From the NCBI GenBank assembly GCA_015665415.1, contig JADFAE010000037.1, positions 1 to 39,028 on the forward strand: 39,028 bases of DNA, read 5' to 3'. The stretch is from Roseobacter sp. GTDB lineage: Bacteria; Pseudomonadota; Alphaproteobacteria; Rhodobacterales; Rhodobacteraceae. This document shows positions 29,125 to 39,028 of this stretch, piece by piece. The notes below the pieces were generated by a model that was not told where the DNA came from, did not search any database, and saw only the letters and a program-made list of their open reading frames with translations. A program made the position numbers and the translations under genes. Within the stretch, counting starts at the first letter, position 1; each line of letters opens with the position of its first letter.

Positions 29125-30318
29125 TTACAGAGACAGTGCCGCCCGGTTCAGAACCTCCAACCCCTTGATCAGATCCTCTTCCTTGGTGTCTTCGTCAAAA
29201 GCATGACTGATGCCACCGATCGAGGGCACAAACAGCATCGCTGTTGGCATCACCCGCGCCACATTGGCGGCGTCATGCAGGGCCCCTGACGGCAGATCCC
29301 GCCACTTGCTCGGCGCCAAGTCATGGGCCGCCTGTTGTAGCGCTGCTTTCAGACGGTCGTCCATGGCTGCAGGATCGATGCCGCCAACCGGGCCAACTTC
29401 GACCTCCACGCCCCGCTCTTGGGCAATGTCTTTTGCGACGTCTTCAACGATGCTCTCCATCGCGGCCAGACGCGCCAAATCACCGTCGCGCCACTGCAGG
29501 GTAAACCGCGCCTGCCCCGGCACCACGGATGAAGCATTGGGGCTCAGCTCGGCATGACCCAGGGTCCAGACAGTGGCCTTTGTTGCCACTGCGCCAAACC
29601 GCGCATTGATCCGCTGATTGAAGTCGCTGAGCGCCTGAAAGGCGTCCTGGCGCAGCGCCATAGGGGTGGTACCCGCATGGTTCTGCCGCCCGCAGATCCT
29701 GATCCGAGTCTCGCGAATACCAACGATATCCGAAACCACCCCGATCTGATCACCGGAGACATCCATCCCCGGTCCCTGTTCGATATGCATCTCGATAAAG
29801 CCCGAGAACATGTCATGCGGCAGGAACTCCCGCGCGCGCCCTGACATGCGGGCCCGCGCCGCCCCCAGGGTCAGACCATCGGTATCGGTAAGCGCATCAG
29901 CCTCGGCCAAAGAGATCTGCCCGGTCCAGACGTCCGATCCGGTGAGAATACCAAAGCGGCCTTCTTCATCCTGAAAGTTCACCACCGAGATGGCGGGTCC
30001 ACCGTCCTCTTTTGACGCTCGGGCAATTTCCAGCCCGGCAATCACCCCCAGGGCCCCGTCCAGCCAACCGCCCTCGGGTTGGCTGTCGCTATGCGAGCCG
30101 ATCAGCAGAGATTTGGGGCCATTGAGGCCAAAAAGATTGCCGACCGGATCAAAATGGACCTCCAGGCCTGCCTCCTGCATACGCGAGGCCAGCCATTGGC
30201 GAGAGGCGATATCCACCGCTGTAAAGGCAGGCCGCACAACCCCCTTGCCAACGCCAGATGCGCCAAAGGACCGCAGTCGGTGTAGATCCTGAAGAAATCG
30301 AGCAGGGTTCAAAGCCAT
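29125..30318 (-). CDS. M20-family Zn-dependent amidohydrolase (N-carbamoyl-amino acid hydrolase/allantoate amidohydrolase type)
   Basis: This 397-residue enzyme of the M20/beta-ureidopropionase family has metal ligands in order at His76 ([11 protein letters not shown]), Asp87 (GWLDGALGV), the Glu118-Glu119 pair (FQDEEGRFG), His178 (EMHIEQG) and His372 (GISHAFDE). The lid or dimerisation domain has NHAGTTPM. Family members cleave N-carbamoyl amino acids, allantoate or ureidoglycine-type compounds. His76 in [11 protein letters not shown], rather than GSHLDT, fits the carbamoylase and allantoate branch, but the substrate cannot be fixed. It is divergent from the histidine phosphatase across a 290-base region with TTGC/GCAA palindromes. 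No pyrimidine- or purine-degradation gene accompanies it. Confidence 0.88.
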
Positions 30319-30608: not shown

Positions 30609-31259
30609 ATGACACATATCACCCTGGTCCGCCATGGGCAGGCCAATACCGAAGCCCGCGACGAGGCCAGCTATGACCAGCTCAGCGCCTTGGGGCACCA
30701 ACAGGCCCGTTGGCTGGGGGAATATCTGACCAATAGCGGCGCCCACCATCCGCGCGTCTACAGCGGAACCCTGACCCGGCATCAGGAAACCGCCTCCGCC
30801 ATGGGCCTAGGCGAAGTGGTTCAGGATCCGCGTCTCAACGAGATGGAATATTTCACCTTGGCCCAGGCAATGGAGGCCCAGCACGGGCTACCCATCCCCG
30901 AAGAGCGCGAGGGCTTTGTCGACCATCTGCCCAAGGTATTCCGGGCCTGGGCCGACAATAAAATAGACAACCCGCCCGAAAGCTGGCGCGATTTTGAACG
31001 TCGCACCCAATCGGTTCTGGCCGATATAGCCGCAGGTGAAGGCCCGGCTCTGGTGGTGACTTCCGGGGGATTTATCTCGATGGCGATACGGCAGGCCATG
31101 GGCTTGGATACCGATGCAATGGCGCGCGCCGCCCTGTCGATCATGAATACATCAATGCACCGGCTGTTTCCCATCGGCGGCCATCTCAGCCCGGTACTGT
31201 TCAACGCTGTGCCCCATCTTGACAGCAGCGACCGGCACTATGCTCAAACTCACCTGTAG
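30609..31259 (+). CDS. Histidine phosphatase family protein with altered second catalytic position
   Basis: This 216-residue protein of the phosphoglycerate mutase-like branch has the phospho-accepting motif LVRHGQ with His9, Arg58 in TLTRHQETA, and the acid Glu in LNEMEYF (about 78-80). The second histidine, normally in VSHGG, is replaced: the segment reads VVTSGGFIS with Ser152. A Ser-Gly-Gly version exists in some branches of the family, so phosphatase activity may be kept or weak. The substrate is unknown. ATG 30609 was chosen because LVRHG should begin a few residues in. An upstream ATG (30576) would add 11 residues. It is monocistronic or loosely linked to the saccharopine operon 110 bases downstream. 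Confidence 0.85.
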   Translation: MTHITLVRHGQANTEARDEASYDQLSALGHQQARWLGEYLTNSGAHHPRVYSGTLTRHQETASAMGLGEVVQDPRLNEMEYFTLAQAMEAQHGLPIPEEREGFVDHLPKVFRAWADNKIDNPPESWRDFERRTQSVLADIAAGEGPALVVTSGGFISMAIRQAMGLDTDAMARAALSIMNTSMHRLFPIGGHLSPVLFNAVPHLDSSDRHYAQTHL

Positions 31260-31370: not shown

Positions 31371-31985
31371 ATGCAATTATACTACGCCCCCAACACCATT
31401 TCTGTCGCCGTGGCCATCGCCCTGGAAGAGGCCGGGCGCGATTATGAGGCGATCAAGATCGACTTTGCCGCCAAGGAACAGACCGGCGCGGCCTATGCAC
31501 AGATCAATCCCAAGGGTCGCGTGCCAGCCTTGGCGGTGGATGGCGGCATTCTGACGGAAACCGGTGCCCTGCTGGAATATATCGCCGATCTGGCCCCCGA
31601 ATCCGGCCTGCGCCCCGCAGAGCCGCTGATGCGCGCCCGCCTGCGCGAGGTCATGTTCTATCTGGCCTCGACCATGCATGTGAACCACGCCCACAAGATG
31701 CGCGGCAGCCGCTGGGCCAGCAAGACCTCCAGCTACAAGGATATGCAGGCAAAGGTGCCTGCAACCATGGCAGACTCCTGTGCGCATCTCAGCCAATTCG
31801 GCCTGCGCGCGCCTTTTGTGCTGGGGGATGAAATCAGTATCGCCGACTGCTATCTCTACCCGATCTGCACCTGGCTGGAAGGTGACGGGGTAAAATTGGC
31901 AGAATTCCCCAAAATCCAAACATTCATGACGGCAATGGAACAGCGCGCCTCTGTGCGCAGCGTCTATGCCAAGGGAATGCTCTGA
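31371..31985 (+). CDS. Glutathione S-transferase family protein
   Basis: This 204-residue protein has an N-terminal thioredoxin-like domain (1-77, with the glutathione-binding GRVPAL and ETGALLEYIAD) and an all-helical C-terminal domain with VLGDEISIADCYLYP. The beta-class catalytic cysteine position (residue 10) is Ile; Ser11 could be the active residue. AGGAG precedes ATG 31371. It is the first gene of a tight + operon with saccharopine dehydrogenase, a PQ-loop transporter and a second saccharopine enzyme. A role may be detoxifying the reactive semialdehyde made by the pathway or binding one of its intermediates, which is inference from position only. Confidence 0.9.
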   Translation: MQLYYAPNTISVAVAIALEEAGRDYEAIKIDFAAKEQTGAAYAQINPKGRVPALAVDGGILTETGALLEYIADLAPESGLRPAEPLMRARLREVMFYLASTMHVNHAHKMRGSRWASKTSSYKDMQAKVPATMADSCAHLSQFGLRAPFVLGDEISIADCYLYPICTWLEGDGVKLAEFPKIQTFMTAMEQRASVRSVYAKGML

Positions 31986-31997
31986 AGGAACACGACT

Positions 31998-33050
31998 ATG
32001 ACACATCTCTGGGTACGGGCCGAACAGCGCCCCAATGAAGACCGCGTCGGCCTGACGCCGGAAGGGGCCAAGGCGCTGCTGTCAGGCGGCATCAAGGTCA
32101 CGGTAGAGGAGAGCGCGGTGCGCGCAATCCCGCTGCAGGGTTACATCGATGCAGGCTGCGAGATCGCGCCGGAAAATTCCTGGCCCACAGCCCCGGCAGA
32201 TGCGATCATTTTTGGCCTCAAGGAGCTGCCAGAAGATGGAACCCCGCTGCCGCATCGCCACATCATGTTTGGCCATGCCTTCAAGGGCCAGCATTCCGGC
32301 AAGGCCTTGCTGGATCGCTTCAAGGCAGGCGGTGGCAGCCTCTATGATCTCGAGTATCTGGTTGATGAGGCCGGCCGCCGGGTTGCGGCCTTTGGCTATT
32401 GGGCCGGCTATGCGGGGGCCGCTGTCACCCTCAAGAGCTGGTGCGCACAGAGGCGCAACGAGATCTGCGGCCCCGTCGGTGTCTATTCCAACAAGGACGC
32501 CCTGCTGGCGGAACTGGGCGCTGAGCTGGATGCGCTCAAGCAGGACCGGCCAAGCGCCATCGTTATTGGTGCCCTGGGGCGTGTTGGCACCGGCGCGGCG
32601 GATCTATGTGAAGCCATGGGCGTGCGCGTGACCAAATGGGACATGGCTGAAACCGCCAGCGGCGGCCCCTTCCCCGAGATCCTGGAGCATGATCTGTTCC
32701 TGAACTGCATCTTTGCCCGCCCCGGCACCCCGATCTTTGTGCCACAGGAGGCGCTGAGCACGACCCGCAAGCTGACGGCTATCGGCGACGTCGCCTGCGA
32801 TCCCGACAGCGACTACAACCCGGTGCCCGTCTACAATCAGGCCACCACCTGGGAGGCCCCGGCCCTGCGGGTCGCACAGGATCCGGTGATGGATGTGATG
32901 GCAATCGACAATCTGCCCTCGATGCTGCCTCTGGAAAGCTCGCAGGACTACGCCGAGCAATTGCTGCCTTCGCTGCTGACGTTGAGCGATCTGACGACTG
33001 GCGTCTGGGGTCGAGCTGAGGCCACTTTCCGCGAATTCGTGCCCGCCTGA
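31998..33050 (+). CDS. Saccharopine dehydrogenase, Lys1 type (lysine-side half-reaction)
   Basis: This 350-residue protein of the alanine dehydrogenase/Lys1 fold opens with LWVRAEQRPNEDRVGLTPEGAKALL. The catalytic pair of yeast Lys1 corresponds to Lys75 (FGLKELPE) and His93 (FGHAFKGQ). The nucleotide-binding centre is AIVIGALGRVGTGAADL. The enzyme interconverts lysine plus 2-oxoglutarate with saccharopine. With the Lys9-type gene two cistrons downstream it makes a complete two-enzyme saccharopine route, which in a heterotroph without the fungal aminoadipate pathway is most likely lysine degradation. It begins 12 bases after the GST stop and ends overlapping the transporter start (TGATG). Confidence 0.92.
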   Translation: MTHLWVRAEQRPNEDRVGLTPEGAKALLSGGIKVTVEESAVRAIPLQGYIDAGCEIAPENSWPTAPADAIIFGLKELPEDGTPLPHRHIMFGHAFKGQHSGKALLDRFKAGGGSLYDLEYLVDEAGRRVAAFGYWAGYAGAAVTLKSWCAQRRNEICGPVGVYSNKDALLAELGAELDALKQDRPSAIVIGALGRVGTGAADLCEAMGVRVTKWDMAETASGGPFPEILEHDLFLNCIFARPGTPIFVPQEALSTTRKLTAIGDVACDPDSDYNPVPVYNQATTWEAPALRVAQDPVMDVMAIDNLPSMLPLESSQDYAEQLLPSLLTLSDLTTGVWGRAEATFREFVPA

Positions 33051-33298
33051 TGGAGCTTTATGTCGGATATATCGCTGCTTTCATGGGCACCGTCTGCTGG
33101 ATGCCACAGGCCTGGAAGGCATGGGCAAGCCGTGACACCTCCGGCCTGTCGCTCTCTGCGAATCTGATGTTTCTGTTCACCGTCAGCCTGTGGTTTTGCT
33201 ACGGGCTGATGGTGGGTGACTGGCCAATCATTGTTGCCAATATCTGCGCCATTCTCATTGTGGTCAGCATCGTTGCGGCCAAACTGCGCTACAAATAA
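33050..33298 (+). CDS. SemiSWEET/PQ-loop small transporter
   Basis: This 82-residue protein has three membrane helices and the family's Pro-Gln motif at residues 19-20 (CWMPQAWKAW), then SANLMFLFTVSLWFCYG. SemiSWEETs dimerise to form a transport path and are mostly known for sugars, but the wider PQ-loop family also contains lysine/arginine and cystine exporters. The ATG overlaps the stop of the Lys1-type gene (TGATG), and the Lys9-type gene starts 12 bases after its stop. It is therefore locked into the lysine-saccharopine operon, suggesting lysine, saccharopine or a derived amino acid as cargo. No sugar gene is near. Confidence 0.9.
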   Translation: MELYVGYIAAFMGTVCWMPQAWKAWASRDTSGLSLSANLMFLFTVSLWFCYGLMVGDWPIIVANICAILIVVSIVAAKLRYK

Positions 33299-33310
33299 GG
33301 GAGAACTCTC

Positions 33311-34453
33311 ATGACTATTCACTGGTGCGGCACCGGCCTCTCGGCCATCCCCGGCCTGCGTCGCCTGCTGGAAGCGGGCCATGACGTTGCGGTCTGGAAC
33401 CGCACGGCCGACAAGGCCCGCGAGGCGGTCGGCGACCTCACCTCCAATATCCATGCCTTTGACATCAAAAACCTGGGCGAGCTGCTGAGCCCCGCCGACG
33501 TGGTGGTCTCGATGCTGCCCGGTGACTGGCACGTTCCCCTGGCCGAGCTGGCGATCTCCAAGGGGGCGCATTTTGTCTCGTCGTCTTACATTGCTCCGGA
33601 AATGCGTGCCCTGGATGCCAAGGCCAAAGCGGCCGGTGTGGCACTGGTCAACGAAGTGGGGCTGGACCCAGGCATCGACCATTTGATGGCCCATGCGCTG
33701 GTGGATGAGTACAAGGCCTCAGAGAGTTTTGATACCGCCAACGATGTGAGCTTTCTGTCCTATTGCGGTGGTATCCCCAAGACCCCCAATCCGTTCCGCT
33801 ACAAATTCAGCTGGTCGCCTTTGGGCGTGCTGAAAGCGCTGCGTTCGCCCTCCAAATCCATACGTGATTTCAAAGAGTTTGACGTGGCCCGCCCCTGGGA
33901 TGCGATCTCCTCGTTTGATGCGCCACTGCCCAGCCCCGAGAGCTTTGAAGTCTACCCGAACCGCGATTCCCTGCCGTTCATGGGCCAATATGAGTTTGGG
34001 TCTGACTGGAATGTGAAGGAATTCGTGCGTGGCACCCTGCGGCTGAACGGCTGGGCGCAGGCCTGGGACGGAGTGTTCAAAGAGGTCGAAACACTGGAAG
34101 GCGCTGCAGGGGACGCGCGTCTGAAAGAAATGTCGGACCAGTTCTGGGACGAGAATTCCTACGATGAAGGTGAGCCCGACCGGGTTGTGCTCTGCGTTGA
34201 TCTCAAGGCCGAGAAAGACGGTGCAGTGGTCTGGCACAAGACCTATGTGATGGATGCCTGGGGAGACGCGCGTGGCACCGCCATGGCGCGCCTGGTCTCT
34301 TTCCCGGTTTCCTTTGCCATCGAGGCGGTAATGAACGGCAAGATCGCCGCTGGTGTCCATGCCGCCCCCAGCGATGCCACCTTGGTTGCAGATTGGATGG
34401 GCAAGATTGGCCAGCTGGCCCAGCATCTGGAAGTCACCAACCGCCTCGCCTGA
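33311..34453 (+). CDS. Saccharopine dehydrogenase, Lys9 type (glutamate-forming half-reaction)
   Basis: This 380-residue protein of the saccharopine reductase family has an N-terminal Rossmann domain (IHWCGTGLSAIPGLRRLLEAGHDVAVWNR), the family segment VSSSYIAPEMRALDAKAKAAGVALVNEVGLDPGIDH, and the substrate domain with CGGIPKTPNPFRYKFSWSP. It splits saccharopine into glutamate and 2-aminoadipate 6-semialdehyde. The two half-enzymes are separate here, unlike the fused LKR-SDH of plants and animals. GGGAG precedes ATG 33311. The dehydrogenase that would oxidise the semialdehyde is not in the window. The operon appears to end with the hairpin shared with the convergent cyclase gene. Confidence 0.92.
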   Translation: MTIHWCGTGLSAIPGLRRLLEAGHDVAVWNRTADKAREAVGDLTSNIHAFDIKNLGELLSPADVVVSMLPGDWHVPLAELAISKGAHFVSSSYIAPEMRALDAKAKAAGVALVNEVGLDPGIDHLMAHALVDEYKASESFDTANDVSFLSYCGGIPKTPNPFRYKFSWSPLGVLKALRSPSKSIRDFKEFDVARPWDAISSFDAPLPSPESFEVYPNRDSLPFMGQYEFGSDWNVKEFVRGTLRLNGWAQAWDGVFKEVETLEGAAGDARLKEMSDQFWDENSYDEGEPDRVVLCVDLKAEKDGAVVWHKTYVMDAWGDARGTAMARLVSFPVSFAIEAVMNGKIAAGVHAAPSDATLVADWMGKIGQLAQHLEVTNRLA

Positions 34454-34463
34454 GGTCTGAACC

Positions 34464-34503
34464 AAAACAAAGCCGAAGGGGCGCAAGTGCCGTGCCTTCG
34501 GCT
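34464..34503 (-). terminator. Terminator at the end of the PAS-cyclase gene
   Basis: AGCCGAAGG (34471-34479) and CCTTCGGCT (34495-34503) form a perfect stem. Read on minus it begins inside the TAG stop of the cyclase and is followed by TTTGTTTT. The stem may also slow transcription arriving from the saccharopine operon. Confidence 0.75.
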
Positions 34504-35614
34504 ATCTCTCATCCCGCGACTGAATCCATATTTCGACAGCATGGCTACGCCCGCGAATGTCGATTTCACCAAATCTCCGCAGTCTTCCCAGATCCCTCGC
34601 TCCGGGTTCAGACTGGATCGCCGCAACCAAGGGCTCACCTACAACCAGATCACAGTTGAGCCTGCGGGTCTCCTTTTGCAGGCGACTGGCGATATTGACC
34701 GTATCCCCAATCACTGTGAACTCCACAAAATCAGCTGTGCCCACATCGCCCAGAACCACCGGCCCATAGTGCAGCCCCACCCCGATGTGTACCGCAGGCT
34801 CGCCACTCAGCCCGCGCTGCAGATTCCACGCCTTCGCAGAGCGCAACAACTCCTGGGCGCAGGCCAAAGCATTGCTGGCGCTGTGGGCTTCTCTTTCGGG
34901 AAAGCCAAAAATCGCCAGGACCTCATCCCCGATATAGCCCTCGATCGAGCCATTCCACTTGAAAATCACCCGCTGCATCCAGGCATGAATGTCGCGCAGC
35001 AGGTGGATGACACGGGCGGGCTCCAAACCTTCGGACAGCTTTGTGAACCCTACGATATCGGCAAAAAGCACCGCCAGATCCTGCTGTGCAACCGTACCAA
35101 GCGGCTGATCCTTGGCCGCAAGCGCTTCGACCAGGTTTGGTGGAAAATAGCGTGCCAAATTGGCGCGCGCCCGCTCCGCTGCCTGTGCCGCTTGCTGCGT
35201 GCGCTGCAACCGGGCTTCCATCTCGACACGCGCGGTGACATCACGCTGAACCGCCAGATACTGATAGATTGAGCCGCCTGCGTCTCTTAGCCCGGTGATT
35301 GACCACTCCATCCAAAAGCTGCTGCCATCTTTGCGATAGTTGAGCGCGAGCCCCTCCCATGTCCCGCCAGTTTGCAGGGTTCGACGCATAGACCTGAAGA
35401 CACCCATGTCGGTCTTCTCTCCCTGCAAAATCCGGGGCGAGTGCCCGACAATCTCTTCACAGCTCCAGCCTGTCATTTTTTCAAAGGCGGGATTGGCATA
35501 GAGAATTTTCGGGCCAGGTAATTCAAGGCTGGCCGTGGTGATTAGGATGCTCTCCGCAGCTGCCTGCAAAACAGCGGCAGGGTCAATACCGGCCTTGATG
35601 CCATGGTCCGGCAT
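34502..35614 (-). CDS. PAS domain-containing class III adenylate/guanylate cyclase
   Basis: The 370-residue soluble protein has a PAS domain (about 10-130, with NPAFEKMTGWSCEEIVGHSPRILQG), a short helical linker (ARANLARYFPPNLVEAL) and a class III cyclase domain. Metal aspartates are Asp186 (LFADIVGFT) and Asp230 (YIGDEV); the transition-state pair is Asn307 and Arg311 (GDTVNIASRL). The lysine that usually sits three residues before the GD pair and fixes adenine is Gly225, so the substrate preference is uncertain. The PAS segment resembles LOV domains but lacks the photoactive cysteine. AAGGAAAAGGG precedes ATG 35612-35614. Upstream in-frame starts lack ribosome sites. Confidence 0.9.
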   Translation of the reverse strand: MPDHGIKAGIDPAAVLQAAAESILITTASLELPGPKILYANPAFEKMTGWSCEEIVGHSPRILQGEKTDMGVFRSMRRTLQTGGTWEGLALNYRKDGSSFWMEWSITGLRDAGGSIYQYLAVQRDVTARVEMEARLQRTQQAAQAAERARANLARYFPPNLVEALAAKDQPLGTVAQQDLAVLFADIVGFTKLSEGLEPARVIHLLRDIHAWMQRVIFKWNGSIEGYIGDEVLAIFGFPEREAHSASNALACAQELLRSAKAWNLQRGLSGEPAVHIGVGLHYGPVVLGDVGTADFVEFTVIGDTVNIASRLQKETRRLNCDLVVGEPLVAAIQSEPGARDLGRLRRFGEIDIRGRSHAVEIWIQSRDER

Positions 35615-35830
35615 CCCTTTTCCTTTCCCCTTGGCAAGACCCGCGCCCATTTTGGGGGTATCTTGCCACCACGCACTGGAACCAAATCTCACAAATAGTG
35701 CGTTCTCCCAAGCGAGCAAATTCGCGCCCGGATACGGGCTGCCTCCCCTCACCTTGCGCTAAGTCATTTTCTTGGCGCCCTTGGTGCCCTATACGGACGC
35801 TTTCCAAGTGCTCCAGACGAGACCCAGACA

Positions 35831-37939: not shown

Positions 37940-39028
37940 TCAGGCCGATGGCTGTGGCACCAGCTCCCGCCCAAAGATCTCGAGCCCATTGCTGCGCCCG
38001 CGCAGATACACCGCTGGCAGGGCAGTCCACCCCTCGCGCGCGGGCTCTGCGGCCAATACCGCAGCCGAGGCAATCACCCCGGCACCGGCTGTCTTGGTCA
38101 ACTCCTCCAGTCGCGCTGCCGTATTCACAGTATCGCCAAACACCGAATACTCCAAACGCTCGACATCGCCGACCACGCCGGAAAAGACTTCGCCAAGATG
38201 CAGCCCAATGCCCACACGCACCGGATTGCGACCAATGGCCTGACGCGCAACACCCCAGTCTTTCACCTCAGCAAGCAGGGCATCGACGCAGGACAGCGCC
38301 CGCGCGGCAGCTTTCTCTCCGTCAAACAGGATCATTGCTGCGTCCCCGATGAACTTGTCGATCATACCGTCATTTTGGCCAACGGCCCGTTGCACCCGGT
38401 GGCGGAATTCACTGATATAGGCCCCCACCTCTTCCGGCGCGCGCCCCTCGGACCAATGGGTAAAGCCGCGAATGTCGACAAACATCACCACCATTTTCTG
38501 CTGCCGTCCTTGGCGCAGCTCACTCAGCTCACCATCGGCCAAGCGGTCCGCCATCTGGGCTGGCAGATAGCGGGTCAGGTTGGCCCGTGCCTGGGCATCT
38601 ATGATCGAACTGTGCAGCAGCTGGCGGGTGCGATAGGCGGCCACTACCAGCACGACCCCCCCCAGAGCAATCATCACCACCCGCATCATATTGGGTTCAA
38701 CCGAAACCATATCTCTGACCCGCTCGACAATAAAGGGGGTGATCTCTTGTGGTTGCCACAGGGTCAGATGGGCCAGCCCGCCGACCACCAGGGCCACGCA
38801 ATAGGCCTGCAGATATGGGTTAAAGCGCAGCACGGCAAAGCCCAGAATTACTGGCACCAGCCAGGTTGGCGGCAACAGAAAGGTCAATTCCCCGGGCAGG
38901 CCGGTATTGCGCAGCCCGGCCCAGGTGTTCACCAGCATGAACACACAGTCTAGTGTCACCGCAGGCCAAACCATCCAGCGGCGAAACCTCCCGGATGTGG
39001 CCAACCAATAGGACAGGCCGCCCAACAG
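37940..39028 (-). CDS. Membrane-bound class III adenylate/guanylate cyclase, 5' end outside the window
   Basis: The frame is open to the last base, so the N-terminus is missing. The visible 362 residues contain about four to five membrane helices (fragment residues 18-135), the same linker motif as the PAS-cyclase (ARANLTRYLPAQMADRL), and a class III cyclase domain. Metal residues are Asp184 (MFVDIRGFT) and Asp228 (DKFIGDAAM). The adenine-selecting Lys224 is present, as is the GDTVNTAARLE segment. It is thus a better candidate for a true cAMP producer than the PAS-cyclase 2.3 kb away. The membrane part probably positions or regulates the enzyme. Start and full length cannot be given. Confidence 0.88.
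   Translation of the reverse strand: MLGGLSYWLATSGRFRRWMVWPAVTLDCVFMLVNTWAGLRNTGLPGELTFLLPPTWLVPVILGFAVLRFNPYLQAYCVALVVGGLAHLTLWQPQEITPFIVERVRDMVSVEPNMMRVVMIALGGVVLVVAAYRTRQLLHSSIIDAQARANLTRYLPAQMADRLADGELSELRQGRQQKMVVMFVDIRGFTHWSEGRAPEEVGAYISEFRHRVQRAVGQNDGMIDKFIGDAAMILFDGEKAAARALSCVDALLAEVKDWGVARQAIGRNPVRVGIGLHLGEVFSGVVGDVERLEYSVFGDTVNTAARLEELTKTAGAGVIASAAVLAAEPAREGWTALPAVYLRGRSNGLEIFGRELVPQPSA

Follow-up and report, generated by a model that had tools for sequence, protein, structure and literature searches.

According to the accessible part of Jia et al. 2018 (PMC5972207), nothing was known at that time of the cellular role of SemiSWEETs. The same text places a SemiSWEET of Leisingera sp. 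ANG1 (A0A0B4DPF1) between two saccharopine dehydrogenase genes and suggests a role for it there; the idea of a SemiSWEET in saccharopine metabolism is thus already known from that source. Here, a similar locus was analyzed in a 39,028-nucleotide stretch of Roseobacter sp. DNA (GenBank assembly GCA_015665415.1, contig JADFAE010000037.1, positions 1 to 39,028; hereafter the window), where a SemiSWEET gene is flanked by LKR and SDH, the two saccharopine dehydrogenase genes that open the lysine breakdown route. Linkage of the carrier to LKR is recurrent across relatives, many of them marine roseobacters. The embedded carriers fall in a clade centred on roseobacters; judged from alignment, its pocket and inner gate both differ from those of other SemiSWEETs, while the Trp/Asn pair is the same. 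We propose, at a rough probability of 0.42, that the SemiSWEET in the lysine operon is an optional valve that lets a small polar or zwitterionic compound of the lysine route pass.

The GST, LKR, SemiSWEET and SDH genes all lie on the forward strand (Table 1) with intergenic gaps of 12, -1 and 12 bases, the LKR stop codon TGA and the SemiSWEET ATG having an A in common (TGATG). The original prediction of a four-gene operon with gaps of no more than 12 bases and this overlap was confirmed at the open reading frame (ORF) coordinates. It had also described LKR and SDH as half-enzymes of the saccharopine route; they are indeed separate genes, but each encodes its own monofunctional enzyme. LKR was assigned the reaction lysine + 2-oxoglutarate <-> saccharopine. 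Yeast Lys1 was its top solved structure, with a nearly full-length alignment (E 1.3e-80), and the LKR part of human AASS matched weakly (~60 bits). From this layout, LKR, SemiSWEET and SDH would be expressed together. Scans for regulatory sites gave no sigma-70-type promoter (shuffle mean 1.7) and one terminator-like site (shuffle mean 3.5); with both counts below the shuffle means, a promoter/terminator argument for the operon was dropped.

Assignment of the middle gene as a PQ-loop (SemiSWEET) protein, made originally from the sequence alone, was borne out by NCBIfam, a solved structure and the predicted fold. The protein scored 83.5 bits against SemiSWEET_2 (NF037968; cut-off 80) and matched PDB 4qnc at E 1.1e-14. 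Its AlphaFold monomer model (mean pLDDT 94.4) has a SemiSWEET-like fold with predicted helices at residues 2-27 (kinked), 35-55 and 58-81, and was superposed on 4qnc by Foldseek with a TM-score of ~0.9. It therefore shows the three-transmembrane fold, PQ motif, W48/N64 pair and above-cut-off score of the SemiSWEET family. No second SemiSWEET was found in the genome at E <= 0.1. Ratios of nonsynonymous to synonymous substitution (dN/dS) against six relatives were 0.05-0.10 for SemiSWEET, 0.08-0.10 for LKR and 0.04-0.09 for SDH. Because of this low dN/dS and the confident AlphaFold fold, the small ORF is regarded as a genuine gene under purifying selection like that on the enzymes. Pfam DUF6552 was also weakly matched by 7 of 30 clade-alignment members (best E 0.00064), a possible hint that this family may be related to PQ-loop proteins.

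Linkage was assessed in several genome sets. A SemiSWEET was found in 12/12 same-genus genomes; LKR preceded and SDH followed it in all ten loci fetched (LKR being cut in L003), and the remaining two matches (G004, G007) have the coordinates of L055 and L057, two loci arranged in the same way. A scan of relatives' contigs, from which the best 80 of 100 relatives were kept, showed SemiSWEET directly after LKR in 73 loci and unlinked in 7; L090 and L091 come from a single contig, and L091, excluded from the trees and residue counts, is still within the 73/80, the gap figures and the counts of histidine phosphatase and GST. SDH was in view downstream in 72 of the 73 linked loci, L106 ending too early. 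The scan used two peptide patterns from an alignment with 12 of 13 rows linked and is thus biased towards linked relatives. In a second survey, 394 family genomes were searched with a profile of the same alignment and no pattern, giving 23 SemiSWEET matches in 22 genomes. Clade membership was here defined by G or S at position 13, W17 and N, Q or H at 38, a line drawn after the rows were known. Fourteen of 18 clade members lay between LKR and SDH, versus 0/5 other matches (Fisher p 0.004, with rows not independent); when all five signature positions were applied strictly, the embedded fractions were 13/15 and 1/8. Both surveys therefore show what was originally proposed as a check, a recurrent association of this SemiSWEET clade with Lys1/Lys9-type genes. 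In a family set of nearly one genome per genus, SemiSWEET was present in 9/198 genomes, and 5 of these 9 matches adjoined LKR by coordinates. At class level, SemiSWEET was found in 56/289 genomes and LKR in 9/289. The two were adjacent in the window's own genome only, and G341 has both ~38 kb apart.

The LKR-SDH gap could be a mere preferred insertion place for a gene of unrelated function. The patchy presence of the carrier fits this, as do the unlinked members (4/18 in the profile survey and 7/80 scanned loci, 5 of the latter with the signature). The embedded SemiSWEETs nevertheless all belong to one clade and share one orientation, with approximate median gaps of ~12 bases to LKR and 14 to SDH (ranges -1 to 41 and 11 to 225). 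Together with the low dN/dS, this makes a mere insertion place quite improbable. LKR was found elsewhere in the genome for three of the four unlinked profile-survey members, the other being G552. It was likewise found for two of the seven unlinked scan loci (both Paracoccus; G034 of the profile survey has the LKR coordinates of one of them and is apparently that genome) and not found for five. Neighbors of the unlinked members gave no common substrate clue: they included U32 peptidases, a glyoxalase, an alpha/beta hydrolase, an EngA-type GTPase with a PadR regulator, histidinol dehydrogenase, a transketolase-like gene and GATase. In two unlinked Hyphomicrobiales metagenome-assembled genomes (MAGs) of 2.1 Mb, the clade SemiSWEET is convergent with a U32 peptidase-type gene (L117, 6251-8165, reverse strand; L128, 2960-3862, reverse strand); L117 has two such genes. 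This is a second recurring neighbourhood of the clade.

Sugar genes were expected to be absent nearby. This held by family match in the window, to which the check was confined: the 10 further ORFs scanned matched no named sugar family at E <= 1e-6, three of them matched nothing and one is an ABC permease of unassigned substrate. Relatives' loci were searched for the window's own genes only. Two record-level oddities were seen among these loci. The records L072 and L090/L091, which carry an operon of roseobacter type, bear the titles Nocardioides marinus and Flavobacteriia; L072 and a same-family genome (L171) have identical LKRs, and these titles or assemblies are probably wrong. The LKR of L053 (4950-5998), L007 and L066 (4944-5988) is split by tblastn into two overlapping pieces, which may reflect frameshift or assembly error.

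The window SemiSWEET carries the signature G13, C16, W17, N38 and T44. We compared 77 embedded rows, in which the identical or same-genome pairs L011/L073, L013/L097 and L014/L108 were kept, with 33 other alphaproteobacterial SemiSWEETs (29 class-survey loci and 4 others). Embedded rows had G (75) or S (2) at position 13, C (77) at 16 and W (77) at 17, versus T (30) or S (3), A (20), S (10) or C (3), and F (25), Y (7) or W (1) in the others. Position 37 was A (46), S (28) or T (3) versus M (23), T (6), S (2) or W (2); position 38 was N (73) or Q (4) versus Y (17), F (9), L (6) or W (1); and position 44 was T (75) or S (2) versus G (31), C (1) or A (1). P19, Q20, W48 and N64 were invariant in both groups. 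Six unlinked near relatives (five distinct, the pair L015/L125 being kept) carry the same signature. The search pattern fixing positions 13, 14, 16 and 17 was matched by 49 of the 73 embedded scan loci, and the other 24, which had no need of it, still read [GS]TCW. Among the 394 genomes surveyed, departures from the signature appear at its margin: A16 in L179 and L181, H38 in L182 and C44 in L181.

These positions bear on a reading of the protein as an ordinary facilitator of sugars or polyols with low affinity, placed in a lysine operon for regulatory reasons. The sugar-holding residues of known SemiSWEETs, W48 and N64, are present in every row, and SemiSWEETs of demonstrated activity carry glucose or sucrose, as stated in the accessible parts of PMC5972207 and PMC4309421. 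According to the former, Thr13 is a pocket residue that coordinates sugar, and the highly conserved Phe17 helps to open the inner path. The latter gives the inner gate of the E. coli SemiSWEET as residues equivalent to 17, 37, 38 and 41, where we set the numbering by Trp50/Asn66 = Trp48/Asn64. The Thr13 and Phe17 of sugar-transporting SemiSWEETs, the one contacting sugar hydroxyls in LbSemiSWEET and the other part of the inner gate, are replaced by G/S13 and W17 in 77/77 embedded rows. The recurrent lysine-gene linkage also speaks against a sugar facilitator, as does one study, cited in the part of PMC5972207 at hand, in which 1 of 8 bacterial SemiSWEETs tested in human cells moved sucrose. 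We consider this explanation rather unlikely.

The original prediction took its lead from PQLC2, LAAT-1 and the Ypq proteins and favored a carrier of lysine, saccharopine or something related. Linkage to LKR/SDH agrees with this, and the family profiles are neutral on the sugar branch, as both PF04193 (PQ-loop) and PF03083 (MtN3_slv) were matched by 30/30 clade-alignment members (E <= 0.01). However, amino-acid PQ-loop carriers have seven helices versus three here, and the 12 Foldseek matches with E <= 0.001 were bacterial SemiSWEETs without exception. Cystinosin depends on W138, K280 and D305, as given in the accessible part of PMC9385667. By our own count from the PQ prolines (P144, P283), which is not a structural alignment, these correspond to positions 13, 16 and 41, occupied in the clade by G/S, C and F/I with no charge. 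Because of this lack of charge, cationic lysine and tri-acidic saccharopine seem unlikely to be bound strongly, and a small zwitterion or sugar-like compound would fit better. A lysine or saccharopine carrier is accordingly an unlikely reading, and what stands of that prediction is the linkage and the possibility of smaller zwitterions. A more specific version of our proposal, which we hold only tentatively, is that the clade pocket may have been rebuilt for a zwitterionic lysine metabolite by a shift of Thr from position 13 to 44 together with F17W and Y38N at the inner gate, making a plug-in saccharopine valve. If true, this would be a three-helix amino-acid-type carrier within a family known for sugars.

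Cargo was considered against the lysine route of the genome. SDH is the single PF16653 match, so that no lysine dehydrogenase of this family is present. Among 22 aldehyde dehydrogenase matches, L210, on a different contig from the operon, carries an ELGGNN motif, which we take to be a mark of ALDH7. It passes NCBIfam NF050084 (L-piperidine-6-carboxylate dehydrogenase) with 803.4 bits against a cut-off of 730, and also matches solved aminoadipate semialdehyde dehydrogenases. With the saccharopine pathway gene set present (LKR, SDH and aminoadipate semialdehyde / piperideine-6-carboxylate (P6C) dehydrogenase), lysine breakdown looks complete as far as aminoadipate. In the related Phaeobacter inhibens, lysine label reaches pipecolate and aminoadipate, as reported in the accessible part of PMC5653290.

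The proposed valve would work as in studied relatives, where each chain has three transmembrane helices, two chains form one pore and a solute moves through it down its own gradient. The carrier would thus provide optional relief or exchange for a metabolite of the pathway, the candidates being pipecolate, P6C/aminoadipate semialdehyde or aminoadipate. Export or equilibration would be more likely than lysine scavenging, since a passive carrier cannot concentrate scarce seawater lysine and the semialdehyde is described as toxic for eukaryotic cells in the accessible part of a review (PMC7253579). Several observations weigh against this proposal. The carrier adjoins LKR in 5 family genomes, whereas LKR occurs in 120/198. 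W48, N64 and Y51 are invariant in 77/77 embedded rows, leaving room for a sugar substrate. The signature counts of the scan are partly set by its own search patterns. Finally, the signature is present in L113, L117, L128 and G552, where no LKR was found in the genome.

The carrier has been repeatedly gained or lost in the same slot, as judged from a tree of LKR. This tree comprised 122 loci collapsed to 114 proteins (80 embedded, 34 not), a sampling enriched for embedded loci; it was built by a quick method and has several long branches. Omitted were L051 and L103 (LKR pieces <=250 aa), L019, L022 and L027 (repeats of L001, L011 and L012) and L063, L106 and L108 (cut or repeat loci). Carrier state required at least 17 changes, in which gain and loss are not distinguishable, 8 of them forced by starred branches; shuffles averaged 29.5. 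On the SemiSWEET tree (82 columns, with half of its forks unresolved) the linkage label needed 3 changes; the embedded rows all fall together, and a few unlinked rows lie among or next to them. Ten Ruegeria loci were 80-84% identical to the window in LKR and 49-53% in SemiSWEET. An approximately unbiased (AU) test rejected a joint group of their SemiSWEETs and the SemiSWEETs from 24 loci sharing their LKR group (p 0.0064, 34 rows versus 25), while the LKR tree of the AU-test rows having LKR needed one change. The 59 rows of this test were picked after the trees were known, 5 of them without LKR in view, and embedded rows such as L070, L073, L075, L079, L109 and L111 were left out. The result is suggestive of a second entry of the carrier into the slot, or of its replacement in place.

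Presence counts in embedded and carrier-free loci separate core from optional members. Among the 67 testable embedded loci (those with >1500 bases before LKR), a histidine phosphatase lay upstream in 63 and GST in 42; GST was found in 7/34 LKR loci without the carrier. Thirty LKR loci were fetched from the family set, 27 of them without a SemiSWEET match at E <= 1e-5. In these 27 the phosphatase was present in 20, and SDH adjoined LKR within ~150 bases in 26, L038 showing none in view. Longer LKR-SDH gaps in L020, L025, L034, L041 and L048 are too short to hold the carrier; replacement of the carrier by another gene in this slot was ruled out by the short gaps of the carrier-free loci. The core is therefore LKR-SDH, usually with the phosphatase, and both carrier and GST are optional. 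The phosphatase, more than GST, is the steady upstream partner of LKR; in the window it ends 111 bases before GST, and its query was started 15 bases (5 residues) inside the likely ATG. Both would serve as accessory enzymes. A role of GST in handling aminoadipate semialdehyde, suggested originally, found no support in these counts. An M20-family hydrolase gene, divergent and upstream of the phosphatase here and in many scanned loci, perhaps belongs to the same neighbourhood. On the other side, a cyclase gene is convergent with the operon and a further ORF lies nearby (Table 1).

Table 1. Features of the operon and its surroundings in window coordinates.
Feature	Position	Strand	Basis
M20-family hydrolase	29125-30318	-	
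Histidine phosphatase (branch 1)	30609-31259	+	Pfam His_Phos_1, E 2.2e-23 on 30624-31259
Glutathione S-transferase-like protein (GST)	31371-31985	+	Pfam GST_N/GST_C; closest solved structure 4gf0, E 3.7e-73
LKR, yeast Lys1-type saccharopine dehydrogenase	31998-33050	+	Pfam AlaDh_PNT_N; PDB 2q99/2qrj/3ugk, E about 1e-80
SemiSWEET carrier, 82 aa	33050-33298	+	PQ-loop, MtN3_slv, NCBIfam SemiSWEET_2
SDH, glutamate-forming saccharopine dehydrogenase (Lys9 / AASS C-terminal type)	33311-34453	+	Pfam Sacchrp_dh_C, E 7.4e-42; PDB 1e5l, E 1.3e-42
PAS-domain adenylate/guanylate cyclase	34502-35752	-	Pfam
ORF resembling another cyclase	37940-39025	-	By eye

The clade provides a natural, repeated genetic tie of a SemiSWEET to one pathway, and close relatives with and without the carrier, together with a short list of residue differences, provide testable material. 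One such pair is Ruegeria pomeroyi SZCCDBG043 (L087) and the genome of L029, which have sister LKRs in the LKR tree. Should the substrate be an amino acid, the clade would form a bridge between bacterial sugar SemiSWEETs and lysosomal amino-acid PQ-loop carriers. Among known systems, Ruegeria pomeroyi DSS-3, also a roseobacter, has a bacterial saccharopine route for lysine and, as the accessible part of PMC4334477 says of both, a lysine dehydrogenase route too, unlike the window genome with its one PF16653 match. The lysosomal and vacuolar amino-acid carriers cystinosin, PQLC2 and Ypq belong to the same PQ-loop superfamily but have seven helices, and the charged pocket residues described for cystinosin (PMC9385667, accessible part) have no counterpart, by our count, in the 82-residue, three-helix window protein. 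The glucose facilitator of Leptospira biflexa (4qnc) has in common with it the fold (TM ~0.9), PQ motif, W48, Y51 and N64, and differs in T13, S16, F17, Y38 and G44 versus G13, C16, W17, N38 and T44. Closest is the Leisingera sp. ANG1 SemiSWEET A0A0B4DPF1, which occupies the same slot as the window carrier; scan locus L085 is a record of that strain with the LKR-SemiSWEET-SDH layout. In the accessible part of Jia et al. (PMC5972207) this case is one genome, presented without a linkage survey, clade signature or gain and loss, and these three are what the present analysis adds, as far as the searches of open-licence papers show.

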